Shown one piece after another: positions 49,546 through 62,671 of a DNA stretch of 64,000 nucleotides (within the stretch, counting starts at the first letter, position 1; every line of letters begins with the position of its first letter). The stretch is taken from assembly GCF_012926615.1 (NCBI RefSeq), contig NZ_JABBNU010000001.1, forward strand, positions 372,001 through 436,000, given 5' to 3'. Both the position numbers and the translations under genes were made by a program. This DNA is from Marinigracilibium pacificum. Its GTDB lineage: Bacteria; Bacteroidota; Bacteroidia; Cytophagales; Cyclobacteriaceae. The notes below the pieces were generated by a model that saw only the letters and a list, made by a program, of their open reading frames with translations, did not search any database and was not told where the DNA came from.

Positions 49546-50507
49546 TGAATACAAACAAGCTTCTACTAACGCTGAATATTTTTACAGTATTCACCTTATT
49601 ATTTTATATCGTTTATTCAGAATTCGGCAAATCACCTGTGGTTATCGAAAATGTCGATAGGACTTCTTCTCCATCGGTGTTTAATGCAAACCCGGGTGAA
49701 CCAGTAGTTTATTCAAGTAAGACCGTGATGATTGACCTGCCAGATTCTTTGACTTTTGCAGGTGAAAAGGTCCCGATGGACATCCCTGATGTTCGTGAAA
49801 GGCTCGATCGTGAAATACACATTAACACTTATTGGCATAACAACTCAATTTTTTTATTTAAGAGAGCAAATAGATGGTTGCCACAGATTGAAGAGATCTT
49901 AAAAGAAAAGGGTGTTCCTGATGATTTTAAGTACCTTTGCGCAATTGAATCCGGTTTTCAGAATGTAGTTTCACCTGCGGGTGCCGTAGGGTTCTGGCAG
50001 TTTCTTAAAGAAACAGGTAAAGAATATGGTTTAGAGGTTGATAAGCAGGTTGACGAGCGGTATGACCCAATTAAGGCAACATATGCTGCATGCGATTATT
50101 TGCTAAATGCACATGAAGATCTTGGAAACTGGACACTGGTTGCTGCCAGCTATAATCGTGGTCTTTCCGGAGTAAAACGTGCGCTGGAAAATCAAAAAGT
50201 TGATAACTATTATGACTTGATGTTAAATGAGGAAACATCAAGGTATGTTTTTCGTATTCTGGCTTGTAAGGAACTACTTCAAAGTCCGTCTGATTATGGA
50301 TTTGAAATCAAAGAAGAAGATCTTTACAGTGTTATCGAAACAAAGAAAGTTACTGTTAAAGAAACTATTCCTGACCTTGTTGAGTTTGCTCTTAATCAGG
50401 GAATCAATTACAAGCTATTGAAGGCTTATAATCAATGGCTGAGAGATGATAAACTGACTGTAAAAGAAGGAGAAGAATACGATATATGGATTCCGGTGCG
50501 GAAATAA
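49545..50507 (+). CDS. Membrane-anchored lytic transglycosylase (MltD-like)
   Basis: 320 residues. An N-terminal hydrophobic anchor ([19 protein letters not shown]) is followed by the SLT domain. The catalytic glutamate is E135 in [47 protein letters not shown] and AASYNRG complete the MltD-type family 1D fold. It cleaves the MurNAc-GlcNAc bond in peptidoglycan, leaving anhydro-muropeptides. The C-terminal 60 residues ([23 protein letters not shown]) resemble a degenerate LysM. It overlaps uvrA by 22 bases. Confidence 0.92.
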
Positions 50508-53359
50508 AGAAGAATTTTGTGAAAGAAGAAAACGAAGCTCTTGATCTTACTGGCCATGAAAATATTGAGGTTTTTGGCGCCAGAGAACATAATCTGAAAA
50601 ATATCGATGTTAAGATTCCGCGAAATAAACTGGTTGTTTTAACCGGTATTAGTGGTAGTGGAAAATCATCATTAGCTTTTGATACTATTTATGCTGAAGG
50701 CCAGCGAAGATATATGGAAAGCTTTTCAGCTTATGCCAGATCTTTTATCGGTAGCATGGAGAGACCTGATGTTGATAAAATCAGTGGTCTTTCCCCAGTA
50801 ATTTCTATTGAGCAGAAAACAACTTCTAAAAATCCGCGATCGACAGTAGGTACTACAACCGAGATTTATGACTTTCTTAGATTATTGTATGCCAGAACCG
50901 GAGAGGCTTTTTCATATCTGAGTGGCGAAAAAATGGTTCGTCAAACTGAAGATCAAATTGTAAAGCAAATTGTCTCCAAGTTTAAAGATCAAAAAATATA
51001 CTTACTTGCTCCGGTGGTCAAAGGTCGTAAAGGTCACTACCGTGAGTTATTTCAACAGATAAGAAAATCAGGGTTCACTTCTGTTAGGGTTGATGGTGAA
51101 CTTATGGAGGTGACACCTAAAATGCAGGTGGATCGATATAAGGTTCACGATATCGAAATTGTTATTGATAAGTTAAAACCTTCCGGAGAAGCTGATAGAA
51201 GGACTATTGACTCGGTAAAAGTAGCATTGCAGCAAGGAAAAGATGTCTTGATGATTCAGGACGAATCGGGAGAGGTTCATCACTTTTCCAAAGCTTTGAT
51301 GGACCCAAAAACCGGACTTTCGTATGATGAACCCGCACCGAATAATTTCTCATTTAATAGTCCATATGGGGCATGCCCGACATGTAATGGTCTGGGGCAG
51401 ATCGAAAAAATCTCCATTGAAAGTATTATTCCGGATCCATCATTAAGCATTCGACAAGGCGCAATCGCTCCTTTAGGAGATTATCGCGATATCTGGATCT
51501 TCAAAAAGATCAGTGCAATTCTCAAACGCTACAAGCAAGGTATTACCACTCCATTTAAAGATTTGAATGATGAAGTAAAAGAAGTACTTCTGAATGGTGA
51601 TGACTCTTTGGTATCAGTTGATTCAAAAAAGTATCCCGGCACTAAATGGAATACAACATTTGAAGGAATTATTCCTTTTCTTGAAAGTCAGCTTGAAAGT
51701 GGTAACAGCAAAATTCAAGACTGGATAAAGGATTATATGGTGATCTCTACTTGTCCGGAGTGTCATGGGCAACGATTGAAGAAAGAGTCTCTTCATTTTA
51801 AAATCGATGATAAGAATATTGCTGAACTGGCAATGTTTAGCATTGTTAAGTTAGGTGAGTGGCTTGAAGGAATTGAGGACCGTATGACTGACAAACAAAA
51901 AGTTGTTGGAAAGGAAATCCTTAAAGAAGTAAGAAAAAGAATAGGCTTTTTATTGGATGTTGGGTTAAGTTATCTTCATCTTAATAGACCTTTGAGAACT
52001 CTTTCTGGTGGGGAAGCTCAGAGAATCAGACTAGCCACACAAATCGGAACCCAATTAACTGGTGTATTATATATACTTGATGAACCAAGCATCGGATTGC
52101 ATCAAAGGGATAATGTAAAACTTATTAAAGCATTACAAGACCTTCGTGATCTTGGAAATACTGTTATGGTTGTCGAGCATGATAAGGATATGATGCTCGA
52201 ATCTGATTATATAATTGATATCGGACCAGGCGCAGGAAGACATGGAGGGAAAGTCGTTGCTGCAGGTACCCCAAAAGAGTTTACCGCAACAAGCACCAAA
52301 ACAGCTGCATATCTTAATGGGCTAAAAGCTATTGAAGTTCCTGAAAAAAGGAGGGAAGGTAGTGGAGACCATTTAATTTTGAAGGGAGCTTCAGGAAATA
52401 ATCTCAAAAATGTAACTCTCGATCTTCCATTAGGAAAAATGATCTGTATAACCGGGGTGTCTGGTAGTGGAAAGTCAACGCTTATTCATGAGACTCTATA
52501 TCCATTGTTAAATAATTATGTTTATCGTTCTTCAAGAAAAGCAATGCCACACAAGGCAATTGAAGGGTTGAAAAATATAGATAAGGTAATAGAAGTAGAT
52601 CAGTCTCCTATAGGTCGTACACCAAGATCAAACCCGGCAACTTATACTGGTGTATTTAGTGATATCAGAGCTCTTTTTTCTGATTTACCTGAGTCGAAAA
52701 TCAGAGGTTATAAGCCAGGGCGTTTTTCATTTAACGTAAAAGGCGGAAGGTGCGAAACTTGTGAAGGTGGAGGAATGAGAGTGATTGAAATGGACTTTCT
52801 TCCGGATGTATATGTTGAGTGTGAAACATGTAAAGGTAAGAGATATAATCGGGAGACTCTTGAAGTTAGATATAAAGGAAAGTCAATCGCAGATGTGTTG
52901 GACATGACTGTTGAGCAGGCAGTTGAGTTCTTTGAGCATTTACCAAAGATTGTTCGAAAAGTAAAAACTTTAGAGGAGGTTGGTTTGGGTTATATTAGTC
53001 TTGGTCAACATGCAACGACCTTATCAGGAGGGGAAGCTCAACGAGTTAAGCTTGCTACCGAACTGACTAAAAAAGATACCGGAAAGACAATTTATATTCT
53101 TGATGAGCCAACTACCGGTTTACATTTTCAGGATATTAGTCATTTACTTGATGTACTAAATAAGCTTGTTGATAAGGGTAATACCGTATTAATTATTGAA
53201 CATAATCTCGATGTTATAAAGGTTTCTGACCATATTATAGACCTTGGTCCGGAGGGCGGTGATGCCGGAGGGCAGATAATGTTTGAGGGTACTCCTGAAG
53301 AATTAATTAAGAAGAAGAAGAACTATACTGCAAAATATTTGGCTCTTGAATTAGAGTAG
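50486..53359 (+). CDS. uvrA: Excinuclease ABC subunit A
   Basis: 957 residues, the normal size. UvrA finds bulky DNA lesions and loads UvrB in nucleotide excision repair. The first ATPase has [15 protein letters not shown] near residue 55 and signature [16 protein letters not shown]; the second has [10 protein letters not shown] near 656 and [15 protein letters not shown]. Zinc-binding cysteine pairs are visible in [19 protein letters not shown] and CETCEGGG with CETCKGKR. The ATG at 50486 lies inside the transglycosylase gene; the conserved part begins near residue 27 ([13 protein letters not shown]), so a slightly later start is not excluded. Confidence 0.96.
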
Positions 53360-53373
53360 ATCTTGATATTGTT

Positions 53374-53406
53374 TTTGGGTTTTGGTAAATTACCAAACTA
53401 TTTTTT
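53374..53406 (+). promoter_or_regulatory. Promoter of solute-binding protein copy 1, with palindrome in the spacer
   Basis: TTTG (53374-53377), 21-base spacer, TATTTTTT (53399-53406), close to the Bacteroidota -33/-7 pattern. The palindrome TTTGGTAAATTACCAAA (53381-53397) fills the spacer, a typical operator position. It could also act as a weak terminator for uvrA, since a T run follows. Confidence 0.45.
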
Positions 53407-53424
53407 TACCTAAATCCACTTGTT

Positions 53425-54276
53425 ATGAAATTTTTTAGACAATCTCTATGGCTTTTTCTACTAGCCATATCTACACTCAATTCTTTTAGTCAATCAACAT
53501 CTTTTGAAAAGGCTAAACAACAAGGTTCCGGAACATTGGAGTACATGTACGTTGCTACTCCAGGGTTTATGGAAAATGAAAATGGAAAATATTCAGGGAT
53601 TTGTGTTGATATCTTATCAGGCTTTGAAAAATGGGTGCAATCGCAATATGGAATCACACTTCAAACCAAGTATGTTCCAACTGCGAATGAAAGCTTCCCC
53701 ACCTTTTTGGGTAAAGTAAAAGCAGGAGGGGCCGGTGTAATTGGTGTCGGAGGCATTACAATTACCGAACAAAGAAAAGCTTCATATTCATTTAGCTATC
53801 CATTTATTAATAACATATCAATTTTAGCAACACACTCAAGTGTTCCAGCAATATCTTCTCCAGACCAAATTGCAACTGCTTTTGCTAATATGACAGCACT
53901 TTCAGTAAAAGGTACAACAAATGAGAAAGCTTTATTGGAATTAAAAAGGAAGCATTTTCCTAATATGAAAATAGAGTATTTGCCTAGCAATATGTATGTA
54001 AGCCAAAAAATTGCAGAAGATCCAAAGTATTTTTCTATTGTTGATCTTGGGTATTTTCTGGCATCATTAAAAAAGTATCGTACTATTAAAAGACAGCCTG
54101 CTATGGATGAGTCTAACGAAAGGTTTGGGTTTATTATGCCTAAGAATTCTGATTGGGCTCCTGTCTTGTCTGAGTATTTAAAAAGTGTATATTTAAATAG
54201 TCCGGAACACAGAAAATCTATCGCGACACATTTGGGCCCTTCAGCTCTGAAACTCCTTGATTCATTCGCTAATTAA
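53425..54276 (+). CDS. Periplasmic family-3 solute-binding protein, array copy 1
   Basis: 283 residues. Signal peptide to about residue 22 (LLAISTLNSFSQ), no lipobox, so predicted soluble in the periplasm. Type-2 periplasmic binding fold of the SBP_bac_3 family: YSGICVDILSGFEKWV, ITITEQRKASYSFSYPF (the family's I-T-x-x-R...FS-P block), SVKGTTNEKALLELK and RFGFIMPKNSDWAPVL. Family members bind amino acids or similar small polar solutes for ABC uptake. No permease or ATPase is near. It is first of five tandem paralogues and has its own promoter and terminator. Confidence 0.85.
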   Translation: MKFFRQSLWLFLLAISTLNSFSQSTSFEKAKQQGSGTLEYMYVATPGFMENENGKYSGICVDILSGFEKWVQSQYGITLQTKYVPTANESFPTFLGKVKAGGAGVIGVGGITITEQRKASYSFSYPFINNISILATHSSVPAISSPDQIATAFANMTALSVKGTTNEKALLELKRKHFPNMKIEYLPSNMYVSQKIAEDPKYFSIVDLGYFLASLKKYRTIKRQPAMDESNERFGFIMPKNSDWAPVLSEYLKSVYLNSPEHRKSIATHLGPSALKLLDSFAN

Positions 54277-54301
54277 GCTGAAATAAAAATATATTTTTAA
54301 G

Positions 54302-54330
54302 ACCTCAATTTATCTAAGTTGAGGTTTTTT
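54302..54330 (+). terminator. Terminator after array copy 1
   Basis: Arms 54302-54311 and 54316-54325 pair over 10 bp with one G-U (ACCTCAA/TTGAGGT core), tetraloop ATCT, T run. Nearly identical to the terminator of copy 2. Confidence 0.85.
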
Positions 54331-54489
54331 ATTTCATAACTTTCAATCAAAAATGTCAAGTTCTGTCATCTGAAGGGCGATTTTTGATATTTTCATTTGA
54401 AGACTGAGACTCCAAAAACACGGGATTGCCAAATTAAAAATTGGAATAATTACACAAAATAAATTTTGCTAACGTAACTGTAAAAATTG

Positions 54490-54521
54490 TTTGTGTTTTT
54501 TTGGTCTTGGAACTAATTTTC
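54490..54521 (+). promoter_or_regulatory. Promoter of array copy 2
   Basis: TTTG (54490-54493), 20-base spacer, TAATTTTC (54514-54521), 29 bases before the ATG. TTTGGT at 54500-54505 lies in the spacer. The whole block through ACCTAAATTTTTTGATATG is repeated before copy 3, so it was duplicated with the gene. Confidence 0.55.
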
Positions 54522-54550
54522 AGTTCTGATACTAACCTAAATTTTTTGAT

Positions 54551-55402
54551 ATGACATTTTTTAAACGATCACTGTGGCTATTTTTTATAGCTATATCTAC
54601 TTTTTATTCTTTTGGTCAAACCACATCATTTGCGGAGGCAAAAGTAAAAGAAAAAGGACAGCTCAATTATTATTATGACACTAACCCCGGATTTATAAAT
54701 GTAAGCTCCGGCACACAAAGTGGTATCTGTGCAGATATCCTTACTGAGTTTGAAAAGTGGGTTAAAGCAGAATATGGAATTACCCTGGTTACAAACTATG
54801 TCCCAACTAAAAATGAAAGTTTTTCTATTTTCCTAGAAAAGGTAAAAAATGGTGGAGCAGGAATAATTGGAGTAGGAGGAGTTACAATCACTGAAGAGAG
54901 AAAGAAGTCATATAGCTTTAGCCATCCTTATATAAATAATATTTCCATTATGGTTACACATTCATCAGTGCCTTCGTTGCGTTCGCCTGAAGAAATGGCT
55001 AGCAAATTTTCAAATATGATAGCGTTATCGGTTAGAGGTACTACTAATGAAAAAACTTTGTTGGAATTAAAGAAAAAATATTTTCCATCTATGAGAATTG
55101 AATATATGCCTAGTTCAAACTTATTAGGAGAGAAAATTTCTAAAGATCCAAAGTATTTTTCAATTGTAGACCTTGGATTCTTTTTAGTGTCATTAAAAGA
55201 ATACAGATCAGTTAAACCTCAACCTGCATTGAACGAATCAAATGACAAGTTTGGATTTATTATGCCTAAAGATTCAGACTGGGCACCTATATTGTCAAAA
55301 TTTATAAAAGAAGTATATCTGAATAGTTCTGATTATAGAAAATCAATTGCTAGTAACTTGGGTGCACCGGCATTAAAACTACTAGACTCTTATGCAAATT
55401 AA
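54551..55402 (+). CDS. Periplasmic family-3 solute-binding protein, array copy 2
   Basis: 283 residues, same length and block order as copy 1. Signal peptide MTFFKRSLWLFFIAISTFYSFGQ. Shared blocks: QSGICADILTEFEKWV, VTITEERKKSYSFSHPYINN, SVRGTTNEKTLLELKKKYFP and KFGFIMPKDSDWAPIL. In place of HLGPSALKLLDS the end reads NLGAPALKLLDS. Its signal peptide start and upstream region are closest to copy 3. Ligand-contact differences cannot be judged without alignment to a structure. Confidence 0.85.
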   Translation: MTFFKRSLWLFFIAISTFYSFGQTTSFAEAKVKEKGQLNYYYDTNPGFINVSSGTQSGICADILTEFEKWVKAEYGITLVTNYVPTKNESFSIFLEKVKNGGAGIIGVGGVTITEERKKSYSFSHPYINNISIMVTHSSVPSLRSPEEMASKFSNMIALSVRGTTNEKTLLELKKKYFPSMRIEYMPSSNLLGEKISKDPKYFSIVDLGFFLVSLKEYRSVKPQPALNESNDKFGFIMPKDSDWAPILSKFIKEVYLNSSDYRKSIASNLGAPALKLLDSYAN

Positions 55403-55423
55403 TCTCAAGTAAAAAAAATTATG

Positions 55424-55453
55424 ACCTCAATTTATCTAAGTTGAGGTTTTTTT
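55424..55453 (+). terminator. Terminator after array copy 2
   Basis: Arms 55424-55433 and 55438-55447, same stem and loop as the copy-1 terminator, with a longer T run. Confidence 0.85.
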
Positions 55454-55612
55454 ATTTCTTGATTTTAAACCAAAAATGTCATGTTTTGTCATTTGAACAG
55501 CGGTTTTTGGGATTTTGATTTGATGGCAGAGGGACCAAAAACTAGGCAACACAAAATTAAAAATAGGAATAATTATACAAAAAAATTTTTATTGGCATAT
55601 CTATAAAAATTG

Positions 55613-55644
55613 CTTGTGTTTCTTTGGTGGGGAAGCTATTTTTC
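55613..55644 (+). promoter_or_regulatory. Promoter of array copy 3
   Basis: CTTG (55613-55616), 20-base spacer, TATTTTTC (55637-55644). It aligns base for base in position with the copy-2 promoter; TTTGGT at 55623-55628 is kept in the spacer. Confidence 0.5.
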
Positions 55645-55673
55645 AGTTCTGATATGAACCTAAATTTTTTGAT

Positions 55674-56525
55674 ATGACATTTTTTAAACGATCACTTTTG
55701 CTATGTTTAATAGCATTTTCTACTTTTTCTTCTTTTGCTCAAACCACATCATTTAAGTCTGCAATGCAAAAGAAATCAGGTACTCTTGAGTACTATTATA
55801 TTTCATCTCCAGCGTTTGCAGATAATGTTGGAGGAAAAGAAACAGGTATTTGTGTTGATATCCTCAATGGTTTTGAGACCTGGGTAAAATCAAAATATGG
55901 CATTACCTTGAAAACAAGGTATATTCATTCTGCTGGGGATAGTTTTGTTAAGTTTTTGACGGATATTAAGACCGGAGGACCTGGTGTTATCGGTGCTGGT
56001 GGAGTTACAATTACAGAGAAAAGAAAGGAAGCATATACTTTCAGCCATGAATTTATGACGAATGTATCAATCCTGGCAACTCATGCAAATGCGCCAACTC
56101 TTTCTTCTGCTGCTGATATGTCAACTGCATTTAGTGGTATGACGGCGCTTGCCGTAAAAGGTACTACCAATGAGAAAGCTTTGTTAGAATTGAAAGCGAA
56201 GCACTTCAAGAATATGACAATTGAGTACCTTCCAAGTATCAAAGACCTTAGCCAGAAAATAGCAGAGAATCAAAAGTATTTCTCAATTATGGATTTGGGT
56301 TATTATTTGTCTTCAATGAAACAACATCGTACAATTAAGAGACAACCTGCAATGGATATGTCAAATGAACTACTTGGTTTTATTATGCCAAAGGGTTCAG
56401 ATTGGGCTCCTGTTTTATCTGAATATATAAGAACAGTTTACAATAATAGCCCTGAAAGAAGAAAATCAATTGCTGCTCACTTAGGACCATCTGCATTACG
56501 ATTATTAGATTCTGTTGGTCAGTAA
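55674..56525 (+). CDS. Periplasmic family-3 solute-binding protein, array copy 3
   Basis: 283 residues. Signal peptide MTFFKRSLLLCLIAFSTFSSFAQ, almost that of copy 2. Blocks: ETGICVDILNGFETWV, VTITEKRKEAYTFSHEFMTN, AVKGTTNEKALLELKAKHF, LLGFIMPKGSDWAPVL, HLGPSALRLLDSVGQ. The usual FS-P-(F/Y) block reads FSHEF, losing the proline seen in the other copies. GAGGVTIT and MDLGYYLSS keep the second-lobe pattern. It shares a C-terminal RLLDSVG ending with copy 4. Confidence 0.85.
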   Translation: MTFFKRSLLLCLIAFSTFSSFAQTTSFKSAMQKKSGTLEYYYISSPAFADNVGGKETGICVDILNGFETWVKSKYGITLKTRYIHSAGDSFVKFLTDIKTGGPGVIGAGGVTITEKRKEAYTFSHEFMTNVSILATHANAPTLSSAADMSTAFSGMTALAVKGTTNEKALLELKAKHFKNMTIEYLPSIKDLSQKIAENQKYFSIMDLGYYLSSMKQHRTIKRQPAMDMSNELLGFIMPKGSDWAPVLSEYIRTVYNNSPERRKSIAAHLGPSALRLLDSVGQ

Positions 56526-56546
56526 TCGAATAATAATATATTTGTT

Positions 56547-56579
56547 AACCTCAACTTATAAGAAGTTGAGGTTTTTTTC
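56547..56579 (+). terminator. Terminator after array copy 3
   Basis: Arms 56547-56557 and 56563-56573 pair perfectly over 11 bp (AACCTCAACTT/AAGTTGAGGTT), then TTTTTTT. Confidence 0.9.
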
Positions 56580-56663
56580 TCTTACAATATCATTATATCT
56601 CATCTACTAATGGCCATTTTAACAATTTCAGCAACTAAAGTAGTCACGGTATTAAGGAGCTTC

Positions 56664-56681
56664 TTTGGTAAGCTATTGTTT
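56664..56681 (+). promoter_or_regulatory. Likely promoter region of array copy 4
   Basis: TTTGGT (56664-56669) is followed by AAGC and TATTGTTT (56674-56681). The block TTCTTTGGT...AAGCTATT also occurs before copy 3 with four extra bases, so it is a shortened relative of that promoter. No TTTG at the right -33 distance is obvious. Confidence 0.35.
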
Positions 56682-56737
56682 TTAAAGCGCTTTTAGGTAG
56701 TACACTTATAATACATCAAATTAACCTATTTATTGAA

Positions 56738-57589
56738 ATGAGATTTCTTAAAAAATCCCTCTGGTTATTCATAATTACGGTATTTAATTTTTCATCATTT
56801 GGTCAAACCACATCATTTGAAATAGCTAATCAAACTAAATCAGGATCTCTTGAATACTTATATTGCTTTTCTCCTGGGTTTATAAATAAGAAAGGAGGAG
56901 ATGTTTCAGGTATTTGTGTTGATATTTTGAAAGGGTTTGAAAGTTGGGTTAAAACTAAATATGGCATTACTCTAACGACAAAATATACTCATATACCTGG
57001 CGATAGCTTTTCTGGGTTTATGGAAGGTGTAAAGTCTGGTGGTCCAGGGGTAATTGGAGCTGAAGGAGCAACAATTACTGAAAAAAGAAAAGAAAATTAT
57101 TCTTTTAGTCATCCTTTTATTACTAGTGTATCTATTTTGACTACCCATGCTAATGTACCAACTCTTAAATCTGGAAAGGAAATGCCATCTACCTTTAATG
57201 GTATGATAGCATTAGCAATAAAGGGGACAAGTAGTGAAAAAGCACTATTAAAATTGAAGGCTGAGCATTACCCAAATATGAAGATTGAGTACTTAAAAAG
57301 CTTTTCAGACTTAAATAGCAAAATAGCTGAGAACCCTAAATATTATTCAATTGTTGATTTGGGATATTTTCTTTCATCAATGAAGCAATATCGAACAATT
57401 AAATGGCAGCCTGCCTTAAATCAATCAAATGAATTGCTTGGCTTTATTATGCCAAAAGACTCTGATTGGGCTCCAATATTGTCTCAATATATAAAAGAAG
57501 TATATCATAACAGCTCAAATAAAAGACAGTCAATAGCCACACATTTGGGTCCGTCAGCTTTAAGATTGTTAGATTCAGTAGGAAATTAA
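56738..57589 (+). CDS. Periplasmic family-3 solute-binding protein, array copy 4
   Basis: 283 residues. Signal peptide MRFLKKSLWLFIITVFNFSSFGQ. Blocks: VSGICVDILKGFESWV, ATITEKRKENYSFSHPFITS, AIKGTSSEKALLKLKAEHYP, LLGFIMPKDSDWAPIL, HLGPSALRLLDSVGN. The GTTNEK motif of the other copies is GTSSEK here, and GVGGITIT is GAEGATIT. These differences fall where family-3 proteins contact ligand or hinge residues, so a changed specificity is possible. It has its own terminator. Confidence 0.85.
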   Translation: MRFLKKSLWLFIITVFNFSSFGQTTSFEIANQTKSGSLEYLYCFSPGFINKKGGDVSGICVDILKGFESWVKTKYGITLTTKYTHIPGDSFSGFMEGVKSGGPGVIGAEGATITEKRKENYSFSHPFITSVSILTTHANVPTLKSGKEMPSTFNGMIALAIKGTSSEKALLKLKAEHYPNMKIEYLKSFSDLNSKIAENPKYYSIVDLGYFLSSMKQYRTIKWQPALNQSNELLGFIMPKDSDWAPILSQYIKEVYHNSSNKRQSIATHLGPSALRLLDSVGN

Positions 57590-57605
57590 TAAATCCAATG
57601 ATTGG

Positions 57606-57641
57606 AAGCCTCAGTTCATGATTTTGGACTGGGGCTTTTTT
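57606..57641 (+). terminator. Terminator after array copy 4
   Basis: Arms 57606-57617 and 57626-57637 pair over 12 bp with two G-U pairs (AAGCCTCAGT core), 8-base loop, then TTTTT. It differs in sequence from the other three. Confidence 0.8.
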
Positions 57642-57832
57642 ATGCCTAAATAGTTAATACAGCTATAAGCTTGCTTATTAACGTTGGAAAATATATGAAT
57701 TTTAAAACAAGCCATTCATATAATAATAAAAATTGTAAATTTTATTACATAGCGCCTAATCCAAATAGTATTTTGTTTTGATTGACAAAACCAAATTATT
57801 ATTTTCCGTTTTTAACCAAAATTCGGAATGCT

Positions 57833-58687
57833 ATGAAATCATTTATTTTTAATGCATCTATTTTATTGATGCTTATTGCCTTTATTGGGAATAATGCTTT
57901 TTCTCAAACAACATCTTTTTCTAAAGCGAAGGAAACTGGTAGTGCCACTATCGAATATGTTTATCTTAATACTCCAGGCTTTATTGAAAAACGATCAGGA
58001 AGTATGAATGGTCTATGCTATGATATAATAAAGCACTTTGAAACATGGCTGAAAATAAACCATGGCATTTCAATTAAAGGAAATTGGGTTGAGACTCCAG
58101 ACAATAGCTTCACTTCCTTTATGCAGAAAGTAAAATCAGCAAATGACGGTACCGTTGGTGTAGCTAATATTACTATTACACCTGAAAGAGAAACTCAATA
58201 CACATTTAGCTCTCCGTTTATTAATAATATTTCAATTTTAGTAAGCCATAACTCCATTAAGACTCTTTCCAATCCAAACGATATCGGAACAGCTTTCAAA
58301 AACATGACTGCAGTTACTGTTAAAGGTTCTACTAATGAAAAATACCTTCGTCAAATAAAGTCAAAATATTTTAAAGAGATGAAGATTGAATATCTGAACA
58401 GTAATATTGATGTGAGTAAAAAGGTTTCTATGGATCCTAAATATTTCAGTGTGCTTGATTTCACATATTATCTTTCTTCGTTGAAAGACCATAGAACTAT
58501 AAAAAGACAACCTGTAATGGATGAAGCAAATGAATACTTTGGGTTTATAATGCCATTAGGATCTAGTTGGGGACCTGTCTTTTCTGAATTTTTATCAGAT
58601 CAATATTTACAGTCTGGCCAATATAGAAGCACACTTGCAAAACATTTAGGCCCAAATGCCTTAAAACTATTAGACTCTGTTCAATAG
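57833..58687 (+). CDS. Periplasmic family-3 solute-binding protein, array copy 5 (divergent)
   Basis: 284 residues from the ATG at 57833, which gives the signal peptide MKSFIFNASILLMLIAFIGN and cleavage after AFSQ; a TTG at 57782 would add 17 unlikely residues. Most diverged copy: MNGLCYDIIKHFETWL replaces GICVDI-GFE-W, and ITITPERETQYTFSSPFINN, VKGSTNEKYLRQIKSKYF, YFGFIMPLGSSWGPVF and HLGPNALKLLDSV replace the common blocks. GxGG before ITIT is VGVAN. Its upstream region does not match that of copies 2-4. A weak hairpin (58703-58723) follows. Confidence 0.85.
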   Translation: MKSFIFNASILLMLIAFIGNNAFSQTTSFSKAKETGSATIEYVYLNTPGFIEKRSGSMNGLCYDIIKHFETWLKINHGISIKGNWVETPDNSFTSFMQKVKSANDGTVGVANITITPERETQYTFSSPFINNISILVSHNSIKTLSNPNDIGTAFKNMTAVTVKGSTNEKYLRQIKSKYFKEMKIEYLNSNIDVSKKVSMDPKYFSVLDFTYYLSSLKDHRTIKRQPVMDEANEYFGFIMPLGSSWGPVFSEFLSDQYLQSGQYRSTLAKHLGPNALKLLDSVQ

Positions 58688-58702
58688 ACAAAAAAAAGAA
58701 AA

Positions 58703-58723
58703 AGCTGCCCGGGGAGAGCAGCT
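58703..58723 (+). terminator. Weak hairpin after array copy 5
   Basis: AGCTGC (58703-58708) pairs with GCAGCT (58718-58723); the tail ATCTTTCA is poor in T. Some read-through into the membrane protein and LytS genes is possible. Confidence 0.4.
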
Positions 58724-58910
58724 ATCTTTCAACCAAAACATTAGGAATTTATCAACTATGAATAAAGAGACTGTAAAATTACTGATTCTTGGCAAAATCT
58801 CAAATGCAGTAAAATGATTTATTTACCGTTTAACATTTTTTTACACCGTAAAATTAAATTATAGTACTATTAAAAGGAAGTTTATGGTAATTTGATTAAA
58901 AATAATAGTT

Positions 58911-59264
58911 ATGGCTCGCTACTATATCATTCTTGCTTTATTCATATTCTTAGCTGGTAAGTTAGGGCTGATAGATGGGTTTGTTGCAGACTCGGCTATG
59001 ACTTTAGTTTTTGGAATCACTATTCTTGAACAATTCAGTTCTATACGTAAATACAAAAAATCTAAAAAGCTTAAACCGTTATTAATTGTTATTCTTGCAA
59101 TACTTTTAAACGCTCTCATTATTCAAGGATTTGAGATTGGTTTAGACAGCTTAGTTGCTCAAGGTATTGATAAGGTAGAAAATGTTTCCAATCTTGATGG
59201 GAATGTATTTCTTGACAATAACATTTTTTTTAAAGTACTTTCAATGATAATTGAAGTTGCTTGA
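58911..59264 (+). CDS. Small membrane protein of unknown function
   Basis: 117 residues. Two or three hydrophobic segments (YYIILALFIFLAGKLGLI, SAMTLVFGITILEQF, LLIVILAILLNALIIQGF) separated by a basic loop RKYKKSKKLKP, then an acidic tail with VENVSNLDGNVFLDN. No signal peptidase site, so it is an inner-membrane protein. No family recognised. It starts 12 bases before the LytS gene and is probably co-transcribed with the kinase pair, which suggests an accessory or sensory role for that pair; this is inference. Confidence 0.65.
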   Translation: MARYYIILALFIFLAGKLGLIDGFVADSAMTLVFGITILEQFSSIRKYKKSKKLKPLLIVILAILLNALIIQGFEIGLDSLVAQGIDKVENVSNLDGNVFLDNNIFFKVLSMIIEVA

Positions 59265-59276
59265 TAATTTGTCTTG

Positions 59277-60299
59277 ATGAAGAAAACATTAATTTATTGG
59301 TTATGTCAATCCATCTGGATTGTATTTGCATTTTTTCAAATCATCGGGTATTATCTTACCCTAAACGATATTACTTTACCTGCGGCTTTTAGTTATATTT
59401 CATTTGCTGTTTATGGCATTATAGTTACCCACATCTATCGATTTATAATTATCAAATATGGTTGGCTAAATCTTCCTATTTCTAAAATTTTACCAAGGGT
59501 ATTCTTATCAACTTTTATTATGAGTGTTGTGGGATATCTCTGGGGGTTAGGTACTGTTCATATTGCTAGTATCTATGATGCTTCTAATGATGTTACCATA
59601 CCAACTTTTATCGCAAATATTCTCGTAAATGAATTTTTGTTTTTGATTTGGTCCCTTATATATTTTTCATATCACTATATAAGTAACTATAGAGCCAATT
59701 TAAAGTATCAGGCCTATATTAACGAAGTGAGATTAAATCAACTCAAATCACAATTAAACCCACATTTTATTTTTAATGGTTTAAACAGTATTAGGGCATT
59801 AATTGATATCGAACCTGATAAAAGTAAATTGGCTTTAACCAAACTCAGTAACATTCTTCGAAAGTCATTAATTTTTGATAGTAAGAAACTTATTGACCTC
59901 AGAGAAGAAATCAAAACGGTAACTGATTACCTCTACCTTGAAAAGATCAGGTATGAGGAACGTTTAAATTTTAATATTGAAATAGAAAAGGAAGCAGAAA
60001 ACATTCCTGTACCACCAATGATGGTACAAACACTGGTTGAAAATGGAATCAAACATGGGATAAGTAATTTGATTAACGGAGGGTGTATTTCAATCAAAGC
60101 TTTTAAAAAGAATACACATTTAATTTTAGAGATAATTAATAGTGGGCAATTACCAAAATATCCTGTTACAAGAGCAAAAGGTCATGGCCTTGCTAATACC
60201 AGAGAAAGGTTAGATTTACTTTATTCTGGTAAGGCAACATTTAAAATTGCCAATTATGGCGAAGATAAAGTTATAACCAGTATAAAATTACCACTTTAA
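59277..60299 (+). CDS. LytS-family sensor histidine kinase
   Basis: 340 residues from the ATG at 59277 (a TTG at 59274 is in frame). Four membrane helices fill residues 1-130 with almost no periplasmic domain. The His_kinase domain follows: H163 in QLNPHFIFNGLNSIRAL is the phosphorylation site, LREEIKTVTDYLYLEKIRYEERL is the conserved second block, VENGIKHGI the N-box and GHGLANTRERL the G-box of the ATPase. Without its own ligand domain it may depend on a partner for sensing. It is 25 bases upstream of its LytTR regulator. Confidence 0.95.
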   Translation: MKKTLIYWLCQSIWIVFAFFQIIGYYLTLNDITLPAAFSYISFAVYGIIVTHIYRFIIIKYGWLNLPISKILPRVFLSTFIMSVVGYLWGLGTVHIASIYDASNDVTIPTFIANILVNEFLFLIWSLIYFSYHYISNYRANLKYQAYINEVRLNQLKSQLNPHFIFNGLNSIRALIDIEPDKSKLALTKLSNILRKSLIFDSKKLIDLREEIKTVTDYLYLEKIRYEERLNFNIEIEKEAENIPVPPMMVQTLVENGIKHGISNLINGGCISIKAFKKNTHLILEIINSGQLPKYPVTRAKGHGLANTRERLDLLYSGKATFKIANYGEDKVITSIKLPL

Positions 60300-60324
60300 A
60301 GATTTACTGAATAAATTAGAAATC

Positions 60325-61056
60325 ATGAGAGCAATAATTGTTGATGATGAGAGGTTAGCAAGAGTAGAGTTATCTTCTTTGTTAAAAAACTTTGATGAAA
60401 TAGAGGTCATTGATGAAGCTGTTAATGCGGATGACGCTTATGAAAAAATAAATAAACACCAACCTGATCTTCTTTTTCTGGATATACAAATGCCTGGAAA
60501 GACTGGATTTGAATTGCTCGAAATGTTAGAAATCGTACCTAAAGTGATATTTACTACAGCGTATGATGAATATGCTCTTAAAGCATTTGAAGTGAATGCA
60601 CTTGATTATTTACTAAAACCAATTCAGCCGGAGCGACTTAAAGAAACTTTACATAAACTGCAAAAGGCAGAAGAAAGTATTTCAAAGGAGCCTGATACTG
60701 TTGAAAAGTCAGCTTCAAAGTTGTCACAGGAAGATCAGGTGTTTGTAAAAGATGGTGAAAGGTGTTGGTTTGTAAAATTATCTGACATTAGGCTTTTTGA
60801 ATCTGATGGCAATTACATTAAGGTTTATTTTGAAAACAATAAACCAATGATCCATAAGAGCCTAAATGCACTAGATGAAAAATTAGATGAAAAAGCTTTT
60901 TTTAGAGCAAGTAGAAAACACATTATTAACCTAAACTGGATTGAAGGTATCGAGCCATGGTTTAATGGTGGATTACTCGTAAAGTTAAAAGGTGGTGAAA
61001 AGATTGAAGTATCCAGAAGGCAAGCAGCTAAGTTTAAAGACATGATGAGTCTTTAA
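60325..61056 (+). CDS. LytTR-family response regulator
   Basis: 243 residues. Receiver domain 1-118 with VDDER at the acidic pocket, phospho-acceptor D53 in LLFLDIQMPGKTGFELL, T in FTTAYDEYALKAF and lysine in YLLKPIQPERL. The LytTR DNA-binding domain spans 140-243 (VFVKDGERCWFVKLSDIRLFE, GNYIKVYF, FFRASRKHIINLNWI, SRRQAAKFKDM). LytTR proteins bind pairs of short direct repeats. Targets are unknown; the upstream solute-binding protein genes are plausible candidates by proximity only. Confidence 0.96.
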   Translation: MRAIIVDDERLARVELSSLLKNFDEIEVIDEAVNADDAYEKINKHQPDLLFLDIQMPGKTGFELLEMLEIVPKVIFTTAYDEYALKAFEVNALDYLLKPIQPERLKETLHKLQKAEESISKEPDTVEKSASKLSQEDQVFVKDGERCWFVKLSDIRLFESDGNYIKVYFENNKPMIHKSLNALDEKLDEKAFFRASRKHIINLNWIEGIEPWFNGGLLVKLKGGEKIEVSRRQAAKFKDMMSL

Positions 61057-61084
61057 GGTTGCCTTCCGGAAAGTTTCAAAAGGG

Positions 61085-61122
61085 TTGATAGAAAGAGATT
61101 ATTTTCTAATCATTTCTATCAG
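61085..61122. terminator. Hairpin between convergent LytTR and acidic-protein genes
   Basis: Arms 61086-61094 and 61113-61121 pair over 9 bp (TGATAGAAA / TTTCTATCA), and GATTA/TAATC (61097-61101, 61107-61111) extends the stem. It overlaps the last codons of the minus-strand gene. No T run follows, so termination is uncertain. Confidence 0.4.
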
Positions 61123-61464
61123 CTCTCTTTCAACATCCCAGTCTTTAGCAAGCTTCAGCATTGCTGTAGCTTCCATTTCAGTAATGTATCCTTTTTGATT
61201 ATTTGCTTCCCATACAAGTTTGATGTAATTAAGCTTCTTTTCTTTATCTAGCTTGCCAATTACATCATTCAGAAGGCTTCGTGCTCGTTGAAAGGCGGTA
61301 TAATAATCTTCCGCAATGAAATTGTTTGCCCACTCAAGTTCCTCATGTGCATCAAGTTCATCAGCTGTATCACCCAGCATCTTTTCCTCGTCTTCGTCAA
61401 GTCCGTGATAATGAAAAATTACTGACTTTAATAAAATGTAGGCTTTCTTTTCCTCTTGCGTCAT
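61099..61464 (-). CDS. Small acidic helical protein (possibly TerB-like)
   Basis: 121 residues, no signal peptide, so cytoplasmic. All-helical and acidic: HYHGLDEDEEKMLGDTADELDAHEELEW, then LLNDVIGKLDKEKKLNYIKLVWEAN and GYITEMEATAMLKLAKDWDVERELIEMI. The second half, with an acidic pair before a helix that follows a loop, is reminiscent of TerB/DjlA-type helical domains, but I would not rely on it. Convergent with the LytTR gene and 79 bases downstream of the hemW stop on the same strand... the gene starts after hemW ends and may share its transcript. Confidence 0.6.
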   Translation of the reverse strand: MTQEEKKAYILLKSVIFHYHGLDEDEEKMLGDTADELDAHEELEWANNFIAEDYYTAFQRARSLLNDVIGKLDKEKKLNYIKLVWEANNQKGYITEMEATAMLKLAKDWDVERELIEMIRK

Positions 61465-61543
61465 TACGAAAAATTACTTTCTACAAATATATATTAATCT
61501 TTTAAAAGTCGATAAAAAGAAAAAATATTTTGAATGGTTGTAC

Positions 61544-62671
61544 TTAATAAAATAGGTTAGAGGCTATTTCATCTGCGAATAGTTTACCTCTAGTAGTCAA
61601 TTTATAAAAATTATTCCTAAACTCGCCTAATCCGGCAGATGAAATTTCTTGAAAATAATTTTCGTGATCTTTCATTATATCAGACCCAAATCGATTTTTA
61701 AATTCAATTGTATCTATTCCTTCTATTAATCTAAGCTTGGTCATCAAATATTCATTCATTTGATCTTTTATGCTTAGAACTTCATTTTCGATAGGGAGAA
61801 TGCCACTTTTTAATGAGCTTATATATTTCGCATTGTTTGAAACATTCCAAAATCGCTGATCATTTTTAAATGAATGAGCAGAAGGGCCAATTCCTAAATA
61901 TGGGATTGCATTCCAATATGAAGTATTGTGTACCGCCCGACAACCTGGTTTAGCAAAATTTGAGACTTCATAATGTTCATATCCATGATCTTCAAGGATT
62001 TGCACCAATAGTAAATATTGATCAATAACATCATTGTCTTCCATTGGCTTGATTCTTCCTTTTTTTAACCAATTTCCGAAAACGGTTTTTTCTTCAATGG
62101 TTAATGAATATGCAGATATATGTTCTGGATTATATGACAATGCCTTCTCAACGTCTTTTCTCCACTCATTTAGATTTCTACCGGGAATTCCATAAATGAG
62201 ATCAAGGCTGAATCTATTAAATCCGGTGTTTTTACAGTCTTCTAAAGCTTTAACTGCCATTTCAGCATTATGTGCTCGATTAAGGAACTTTAATATTTCT
62301 TCATTAAAACTTTGAATTCCAATGCTTAACCTGTCAACGCCTGAAATTTTCCATTTTAGTAATTTTTGTTTGGTTATATCATCAGGGTTAGCTTCAAATG
62401 TAAATTCACTTAAGTTTGATGGTAAAGTAAAAGAACTATTCAGTTCATTTATTATGGCATCAATATTTTTTTGATTTAATGTTGAGGGAGTACCGCCTCC
62501 AAAATAGAGAGTTTTAATCTCCGCATCTTTAAAAAAATCTTTTCTTAAATTTATTTCTGTTAACATTGCATCAACTAATGCATCAATATTTTTCAGATTA
62601 GTGCTGAAGTGAAAGTCACAATAATGACAAGCTTGTTTACAAAATGGAATATGTATATAAATACCGCTCAA
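61544..62671 (-). CDS. hemW: HemW-type radical SAM protein
   Basis: 375 residues. The conserved N-terminus MSGIYIHIPFCKQACHYCDF holds the cluster cysteines C11, C15 and C18 (CxxxCxxC) plus the extra downstream position typical of HemW. TLYFGGGTPSTL, EFTFEANPDD, LSIGIQSFNEEILKFLNRAH and FSLDLIYGIPGR are radical SAM and coproporphyrinogen-oxidase-like blocks; HNTSYWNAIPYLGIGPSAHSF is diagnostic for the HemW branch. It is now considered a heme chaperone rather than the HemN oxidase. Its first 48 bases overlap, on the other strand, the start of the Omp85-like gene. Confidence 0.93.
   Translation of the reverse strand: MSGIYIHIPFCKQACHYCDFHFSTNLKNIDALVDAMLTEINLRKDFFKDAEIKTLYFGGGTPSTLNQKNIDAIINELNSSFTLPSNLSEFTFEANPDDITKQKLLKWKISGVDRLSIGIQSFNEEILKFLNRAHNAEMAVKALEDCKNTGFNRFSLDLIYGIPGRNLNEWRKDVEKALSYNPEHISAYSLTIEEKTVFGNWLKKGRIKPMEDNDVIDQYLLLVQILEDHGYEHYEVSNFAKPGCRAVHNTSYWNAIPYLGIGPSAHSFKNDQRFWNVSNNAKYISSLKSGILPIENEVLSIKDQMNEYLMTKLRLIEGIDTIEFKNRFGSDIMKDHENYFQEISSAGLGEFRNNFYKLTTRGKLFADEIASNLFY

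Follow-up and report, generated by a model that had tools for sequence, protein, structure and literature searches.

Family-3 binding proteins (SBP_bac_3, PF00497) are routinely annotated as parts of ATP-binding cassette (ABC) transporters, and domains of the same family form the outer domains of sensor kinases of the BvgS/EvgS type. In Marinigracilibium pacificum (Bacteroidota; Cyclobacteriaceae) five genes for solute-binding proteins (SBPs) of this family lie in direct tandem within a stretch of 64,000 nucleotides (assembly GCF_012926615.1, contig NZ_JABBNU010000001.1, positions 372,001 to 436,000), hereafter the window. We propose, at about even confidence, that this array may encode soluble periplasmic amino-acid receptors for signalling, belonging to a branch of SBP_bac_3 with no part in ABC import.

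With the PAAT binding proteins GlnH, HisJ/ArgT, ArtJ and AncQR the array has fold, secretion and amino-acid clamp in common. It differs from them in that no PAAT permease was detected in the 148 genomes of its bacterial family, and in an identity of 12–22% to the solved structures among the matches listed. In the SBP_bac_3 sensor kinases, here members with a HisKA domain, the sensor domain, which has the same clamp in 26 of 32 cases, is the closest relative that came to light, whereas the window proteins are soluble and kinase-free, and position 130 is N in nearly all stand-alone proteins and D in the fused domains. Expansions of orphan binding proteins are already known: passages of PMC5994714 describe the TTT/Bug proteins of Bordetella and Rhodoplanes as expanded, devoid of membrane components and proposed to act in sensing. 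Lineage-specific expansion without membrane components is common to these and the array, but the array belongs to a different binding-protein family and the numbers of TTT/Bug proteins are far larger. Cyclohexadienyl dehydratase (PheC/CDT), as treated in parts of PMC7683729 and PMC10520331, is a periplasmic, exported protein with the type-II binding-protein fold which, as proposed for the array, acts without transport. The latter source lists nine active-site residues including Glu173; the array family in contrast retains the amino-acid clamp. Finally, passages of PMC9602780 treat the activation of kinases or chemoreceptors by periplasmic SBPs as a general mechanism. The same way of working is proposed here for the array. 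Within the limits of the terms used, no literature on these stand-alone proteins was found.

Importers, fused relatives and the ligand clamp

Since many loci repeat genomes already sampled, stand-alone genes were counted once per sequence, which gives 126 genes in 113 loci with the window excluded and the contig-cut locus L137 included. Of 169 relatives in the contig scan the best 80 were kept (78 loci), and the names uvrA, comEC and hemW and the types of ABC permease were assigned by eye. The PAAT permease domain TIGR01726 was found neither in the M. pacificum genome nor in any of the 148 family genomes, and 11 of 14 control genomes were positive. Five BPD_transp_1 (PF00528) matches are present in M. 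pacificum, one of them below the cut-off and all on contigs other than that of the window; by eye we take them to be an OppB-like and an OppC-like protein, a permease of the glycine-betaine type, and two paired permeases that have a binding protein of their own next to them. Neither the PF00528 nor the TIGR01726 search revealed a cognate permease for the array proteins in this genome, and a hidden importer for the array was rejected on these searches. The initial annotation had reported no ABC permease or ATPase within the window, which was not scanned as a whole for ABC ATPases here, and the orphan status of the genes is stronger than it claimed. The gene to the left of the array encodes UvrA (by eye), a repair protein that contains an ATPase of the ABC type.

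Among the 220 proteins encoded immediately beside the 126 stand-alone genes, three have at least six predicted transmembrane (TM) segments by a simple hydropathy rule, namely a ComEC-like protein (by eye) and a ZIP and a PMT_2 protein (Pfam, with which ten neighbour proteins were scanned). By TM count, these 3 of 220 are the possible transporters. Two further SBP_bac_3 proteins are encoded in the M. pacificum genome (G000:C12:107291-107917 and G000:C37:17575-18237; loci L002 and L001). One has 326 amino acids and one is MltF-like by eye; neither matches the array profile at E ≤ 0.01.

At E ≤ 1e-20, 108 matches to the array were obtained in 49 of the 148 family genomes. Of these, 76 are shorter frames from 39 genomes, including one contig-cut frame and one fragment interrupted by stops; the other 32 are open over about 600–700 amino acids and come from 19 genomes. 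Both forms occur in nine genomes. Ten of the 32 long frames were scanned with Pfam: all contain HATPase_c, nine contain HisKA, and all carry SBP_bac_3 at the front, eight above the cut-off. A kinase in the same chain is present in the ten relatives scanned, and is absent from the window proteins with their 283–284 amino acids. Matches to solved ABC binding proteins were weaker (best E about 1e-10) and, on the strength of these searches, the outer domains of sensor kinases are the closest relatives seen beyond the group itself. Kinases with the order SBP_bac_3-TM-HisKA were seen at L041-L060 in the same bacterial family, and no relative of the window's LytTR regulator occurs in these stretches.

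In a tree from which domains of fewer than 180 residues were left out, the 32 fused frames form one group with the contig-cut frame as sole addition (support 84). The tree was made by a quick method with SH-aLRT support only, its root is unreliable since two very distant outgroups do not group together, and it holds no wide sample of ABC-linked SBPs; it does not rank the fused and stand-alone forms by age. An origin of the stand-alone proteins by repeated kinase decay was rejected, the tree requiring just two changes of the fused label, one of which is the contig-cut frame. In a sample of 395 genomes of the phylum, scored for up to six candidates per genome so that copies may be missed, the family was found in 16 genomes, 12 of them outside the window's family, as stand-alone or kinase-length frames. 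Two of the distant stand-alone proteins (L227 and L230) have an early cysteine and by eye may be lipoproteins.

All five array proteins match SBP_bac_3 in Pfam; copy 3 falls short of the curated cut-off (19.4 versus 26.4 bits), which the other four exceed. TctC, the Pfam family of the TTT/Bug proteins, was matched by none of the five in the Pfam scan. The name TctC also occurs in passages of PMC9602780.

The AlphaFold2 model of copy 1, the copy modelled, has a mean pLDDT of 93.3, and its best solved Foldseek matches are glutamine- and arginine-binding proteins; also among the 50 matches listed are cyclohexadienyl dehydratases, MltF and ionotropic glutamate receptor domains. A profile alignment of the array family to AncQR, an ancestral Gln/Arg-binding protein, spans both lobes. 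Residues T112, R117, T/S164 and D207, equivalent to the carboxylate and amino contacts of GlnBP and LAOBP, are present in all five copies. The four together are kept in 123 of 127 distinct stand-alone proteins, a tally that includes the window's five and excludes L137, and in 26 of the 32 fused domains. Positions N130, R223 and D243 are conserved in 97, 94 and 98%, respectively; copies 2, 4 and 5 depart from them (Table 1), the letters of the window being the sole use made of a 146-row tally that was not de-duplicated. Position 130 is N in 123 of 127 stand-alone proteins and D in 32 of 32 fused domains. According to the survey PMC9602780, the predicted ligands of SBP_bac_3 members are almost exclusively amino acids.

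Proposed signalling and scavenging roles

A receptor role for the array is preferred because the PAAT permease is absent and the nearest relatives are fused to sensor kinases. Each array protein would be exported to the periplasm and would close on an amino acid or similar zwitterion. The closed form would then dock on a kinase or chemoreceptor in the membrane, encoded away from the array, and this signalling protein would pass the signal on; duplication would have let the copies diverge in ligand or expression. In genome G072 a gene with a methyl-accepting chemotaxis protein (MCP) domain lies directly 5' of a pair of SBP genes that share its strand; in G035 an MCP gene adjoins an SBP gene on the opposite strand. 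The SBPs of these genomes are sisters on the tree, and the genomes contain 13 and 8 MCP matches, respectively. Double-HAMP MCP genes stand beside stand-alone SBP genes in two genera (L074:3744-5921 and L077:6859-9012), and a third gene of the same MCP sequence cluster is located two genes from a fused kinase in L056.

Several observations weigh against this role. No receiving partner for the array was found in the M. pacificum genome: a fused kinase of the array family was not detected there at E ≤ 0.01, and its one MCP protein is distantly like the SBP-linked ones (23–30% identity in parts). Of the 113 distinct stand-alone loci, three have an MCP gene (two adjacent) and 11 a HisKA-type kinase anywhere in the stretch, and about half adjoin housekeeping genes (enoyl-CoA hydratase 35, UvrA 18), not signalling genes. 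Stand-alone and fused forms co-occur weakly, in nine genomes against 5.0 expected (hypergeometric P 0.03, phylogeny ignored), and a kinase sensor domain was absent among the 50 Foldseek matches listed. Across 140 loci, duplicates included, an OppB-like gene was found in L220 and two ABC ATPases in L094, several kb away; the remaining ABC ATPase matches are UvrA-sized.

The main rival is scavenging, in which amino acids caught by the proteins in the periplasm would pass to a transporter of another type than PAAT, for example a secondary symporter, the arrangement that has been proposed for TAXI-GltS of Bordetella. Secondary transport dependent on binding proteins has been proposed already (PMC12344293); the conserved clamp would suit such a role, and, as the kinase fusions occupy a separate branch, the stand-alone proteins could act otherwise. 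No amino-acid transporter by TM count was seen among the 220 neighbours of the 126 stand-alone genes, the genome itself not being searched for symporter families, and on balance we hold scavenging to be rather unlikely.

Within the receptor role, a bolder form may be imagined, in which a separately transcribed panel of receptors, grown by tandem duplication, would compete for a single membrane sensor; the amino acids that the cell reports on would then depend on the mix of copies. It would be the "split" counterpart of the SBP-kinase fusions of the same family. We regard this version as quite doubtful.

The neighbouring kinase and the uvrA locus

Table 1. Array genes, hairpins and neighbouring genes in the window
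Feature	Position	Strand	Remarks
uvrA	50486..53359	+	By eye; conserved left anchor of the neighbourhood
SBP copy 1	53425..54276	+	283 aa; without lipobox; N-terminus hydrophobic, by eye a signal peptide
Hairpin terminator after copy 1	54299..54328	+	Consensus scan; T run
SBP copy 2	54551..55402	+	283 aa; conserved R223 to P
Hairpin terminator after copy 2	55423..55448	+	Consensus scan; T run
SBP copy 3	55674..56525	+	283 aa; 19.4 bits in Pfam, under the cut-off
Hairpin terminator after copy 3	56547..56573	+	Consensus scan; T run
SBP copy 4	56738..57589	+	283 aa; N130 to S and R223 to W (both conserved); E109 and S166 at less conserved positions
Hairpin and T run after copy 4	57607..57636	+	57590-57650 folds at -22.8 kcal/mol; absent from consensus-scan list
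SBP copy 5	57833..58687	+	284 aa; conserved D243 to S
Hairpin between copy 5 and 117-aa gene	58703..58723		Scan scores - strand; T tail weak on + strand
Small membrane protein, 117 aa	58911..59264	+	Roughly 3 TM segments
Sensor kinase, His_kinase (PF06580)	59277 (or TTG 59274)..60299	+	Several TM segments; little periplasmic sequence
LytTR response regulator	60325..61056	+

The initial annotation described a small membrane protein followed by a LytS-type kinase with almost no periplasmic domain, and suggested that the array might feed this kinase. The order of the genes and the scarcity of periplasmic sequence hold. The label "LytS-type" is loose, since a Pfam scan (E up to 1) returned His_kinase (PF06580) and a weak HATPase_c and did not find 5TM-5TMR_LYT, the sensor domain of LytS. 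Among loci L041-L100, proteins similar to the 117-amino-acid protein occur in two congeners only.

This kinase is present in 138 and uvrA in 144 of the 148 family genomes, and the stand-alone SBP in 39. Distances between uvrA and the kinase were tabulated for 135 genomes, 12 lacking one of the two matches and one lacking both. Where there is no stand-alone SBP and the two genes share a contig (n=75), they are within 500 bp in 49 genomes and within 10 kb in 70; where the SBP is elsewhere in the genome (n=21) the numbers are 9 and 17, and where it lies beside uvrA (n=10) they are 0 and 8. Read most simply, these distances point to insertion of the binding-protein gene into a uvrA-kinase pair that already existed. 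The kinase being near-universal and close to uvrA without any SBP, proximity adds nothing beyond inherited gene order.

An arrangement in which the array feeds the adjacent kinase through the 117-amino-acid membrane protein, as receptor, adaptor and kinase, must be considered improbable on these data, and as the main interpretation a LytS partnership was rejected on the presence counts and the uvrA-kinase distances. In its favour are the adjacency of array and kinase in three Mangrovivirga-type genomes and the occurrence of this kinase type in 21 of the 113 distinct stand-alone loci, among which close relatives are over-represented. Most genomes with the kinase have no stand-alone SBP, however. 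The SBP gene also stays by uvrA when the kinase is 15–20 kb off (G030 and G101) or on another contig (G002 and G139), and by the kinase when uvrA is at least 400 kb off (G055 and G116) or on another contig (G019). In the window itself a hairpin lies between the array and the kinase genes. Of the suggestion made initially, receptors as opposed to parts of an importer are supported, by the missing PAAT permease and the kinase-sensor relatives, and the feed into the neighbouring kinase is not. A comparable case, of nearby sbp and kinase genes without observed interaction, is described in PMC11113362, which reports that linkage is not always functional.

Other genes accompany the locus. A gene of a type II NADH dehydrogenase cluster (Pfam for one member) lies between SBP and kinase in five other genera; NADH dehydrogenase-type genes in this position were seen in L061, L062, L067, L084, L087 and L092, and are missing there in the three Mangrovivirga genomes. 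A 121-amino-acid protein and a HemW-like gene (by eye; window 61099-62671) stay beside the kinase pair in several genera. A second conserved home of the stand-alone genes (L068, L071, L073, L079 and L094-L100) consists of a comEC-like gene, enoyl-CoA hydratase, the SBP gene and often recQ, and enoyl-CoA hydratase and RecQ account for 35 and 27 of the 220 neighbour proteins.

Copies, transcription units and significance

The open reading frames, the Pfam matches and identities to copy 1 of 65, 65, 60 and 54% for copies 2, 3, 4 and 5, respectively, agree with the original description of five tandem secreted SBP_bac_3 paralogues of 283–284 codons. For copy 5 the ATG at 57833 was taken as start, the mechanical reading frame opening at TTG 57782. 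The reported absence of a lipobox was likewise borne out, the pattern occurring in 0 of 75 shorter frames of the SBP family, among them the window's five and one frame cut by a contig end.

Congeners G063 and G120 have two SBP genes each at the place where the window holds five. Because copies 1–4 cluster on the tree with the first gene of the congeners, and copy 5 joins the second, one gene appears to have become four in the window lineage. Judged by this tree, copies 1–4 go back to a lineage-specific expansion, from a gene of which the two congeners have one copy each. A Cyclobacteriaceae metagenome-assembled genome contains four tandem SBP genes, the first truncated at a contig end (L198:3-3395), which indicates that arrays arose elsewhere too.

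Hairpins with T runs after copies 1–4 suggest that the array genes are probably separate transcription units. With a hairpin after each SBP gene, the T tail of that after copy 5 being weak, a single operon of array and kinase genes is unlikely. The hairpin sequence is repeated after copies 1–3, which fits duplication of a gene together with its terminator. In 53000-61100 a search for regulatory RNA with Rfam gave only two sub-threshold matches, around the copy 4 hairpin, and the promoter scan was uninformative, with 27 sites against 38.2 in shuffled sequences, i.e. fewer than in the shuffles.

That the copies are redundant duplicates, spread by drift and with little function beyond gene dosage, would accord with the grouping of copies 1–4 with one congener gene and with the homologue in G140, a fragment with stops. 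Since all five copies are open and keep the clamp, though copies 2–5 have diverged from copy 1 as stated above, we consider this very unlikely. The slimmest chance is given to the array proteins being periplasmic enzymes of binding-protein ancestry like cyclohexadienyl dehydratase, which with its reconstructed ancestors is among the Foldseek matches (3kbr, 5jos), as the amino-acid clamp is kept in 123 of 127 proteins, as in a binder, the dehydratase active-site residues not being mapped onto the family.

The locus is a caution that function is not to be inferred from proximity to an old conserved neighbour. It represents a whole SBP lineage, in a bacterial family with no detected PAAT importer (0 of 148 genomes), next to a branch fused to kinases. 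If the array proteins are true receptors, annotations of such proteins as ABC-transporter parts would be misleading in these bacteria, and the pair of fused and soluble forms would offer a direct route to study how a transport domain becomes a sensor.

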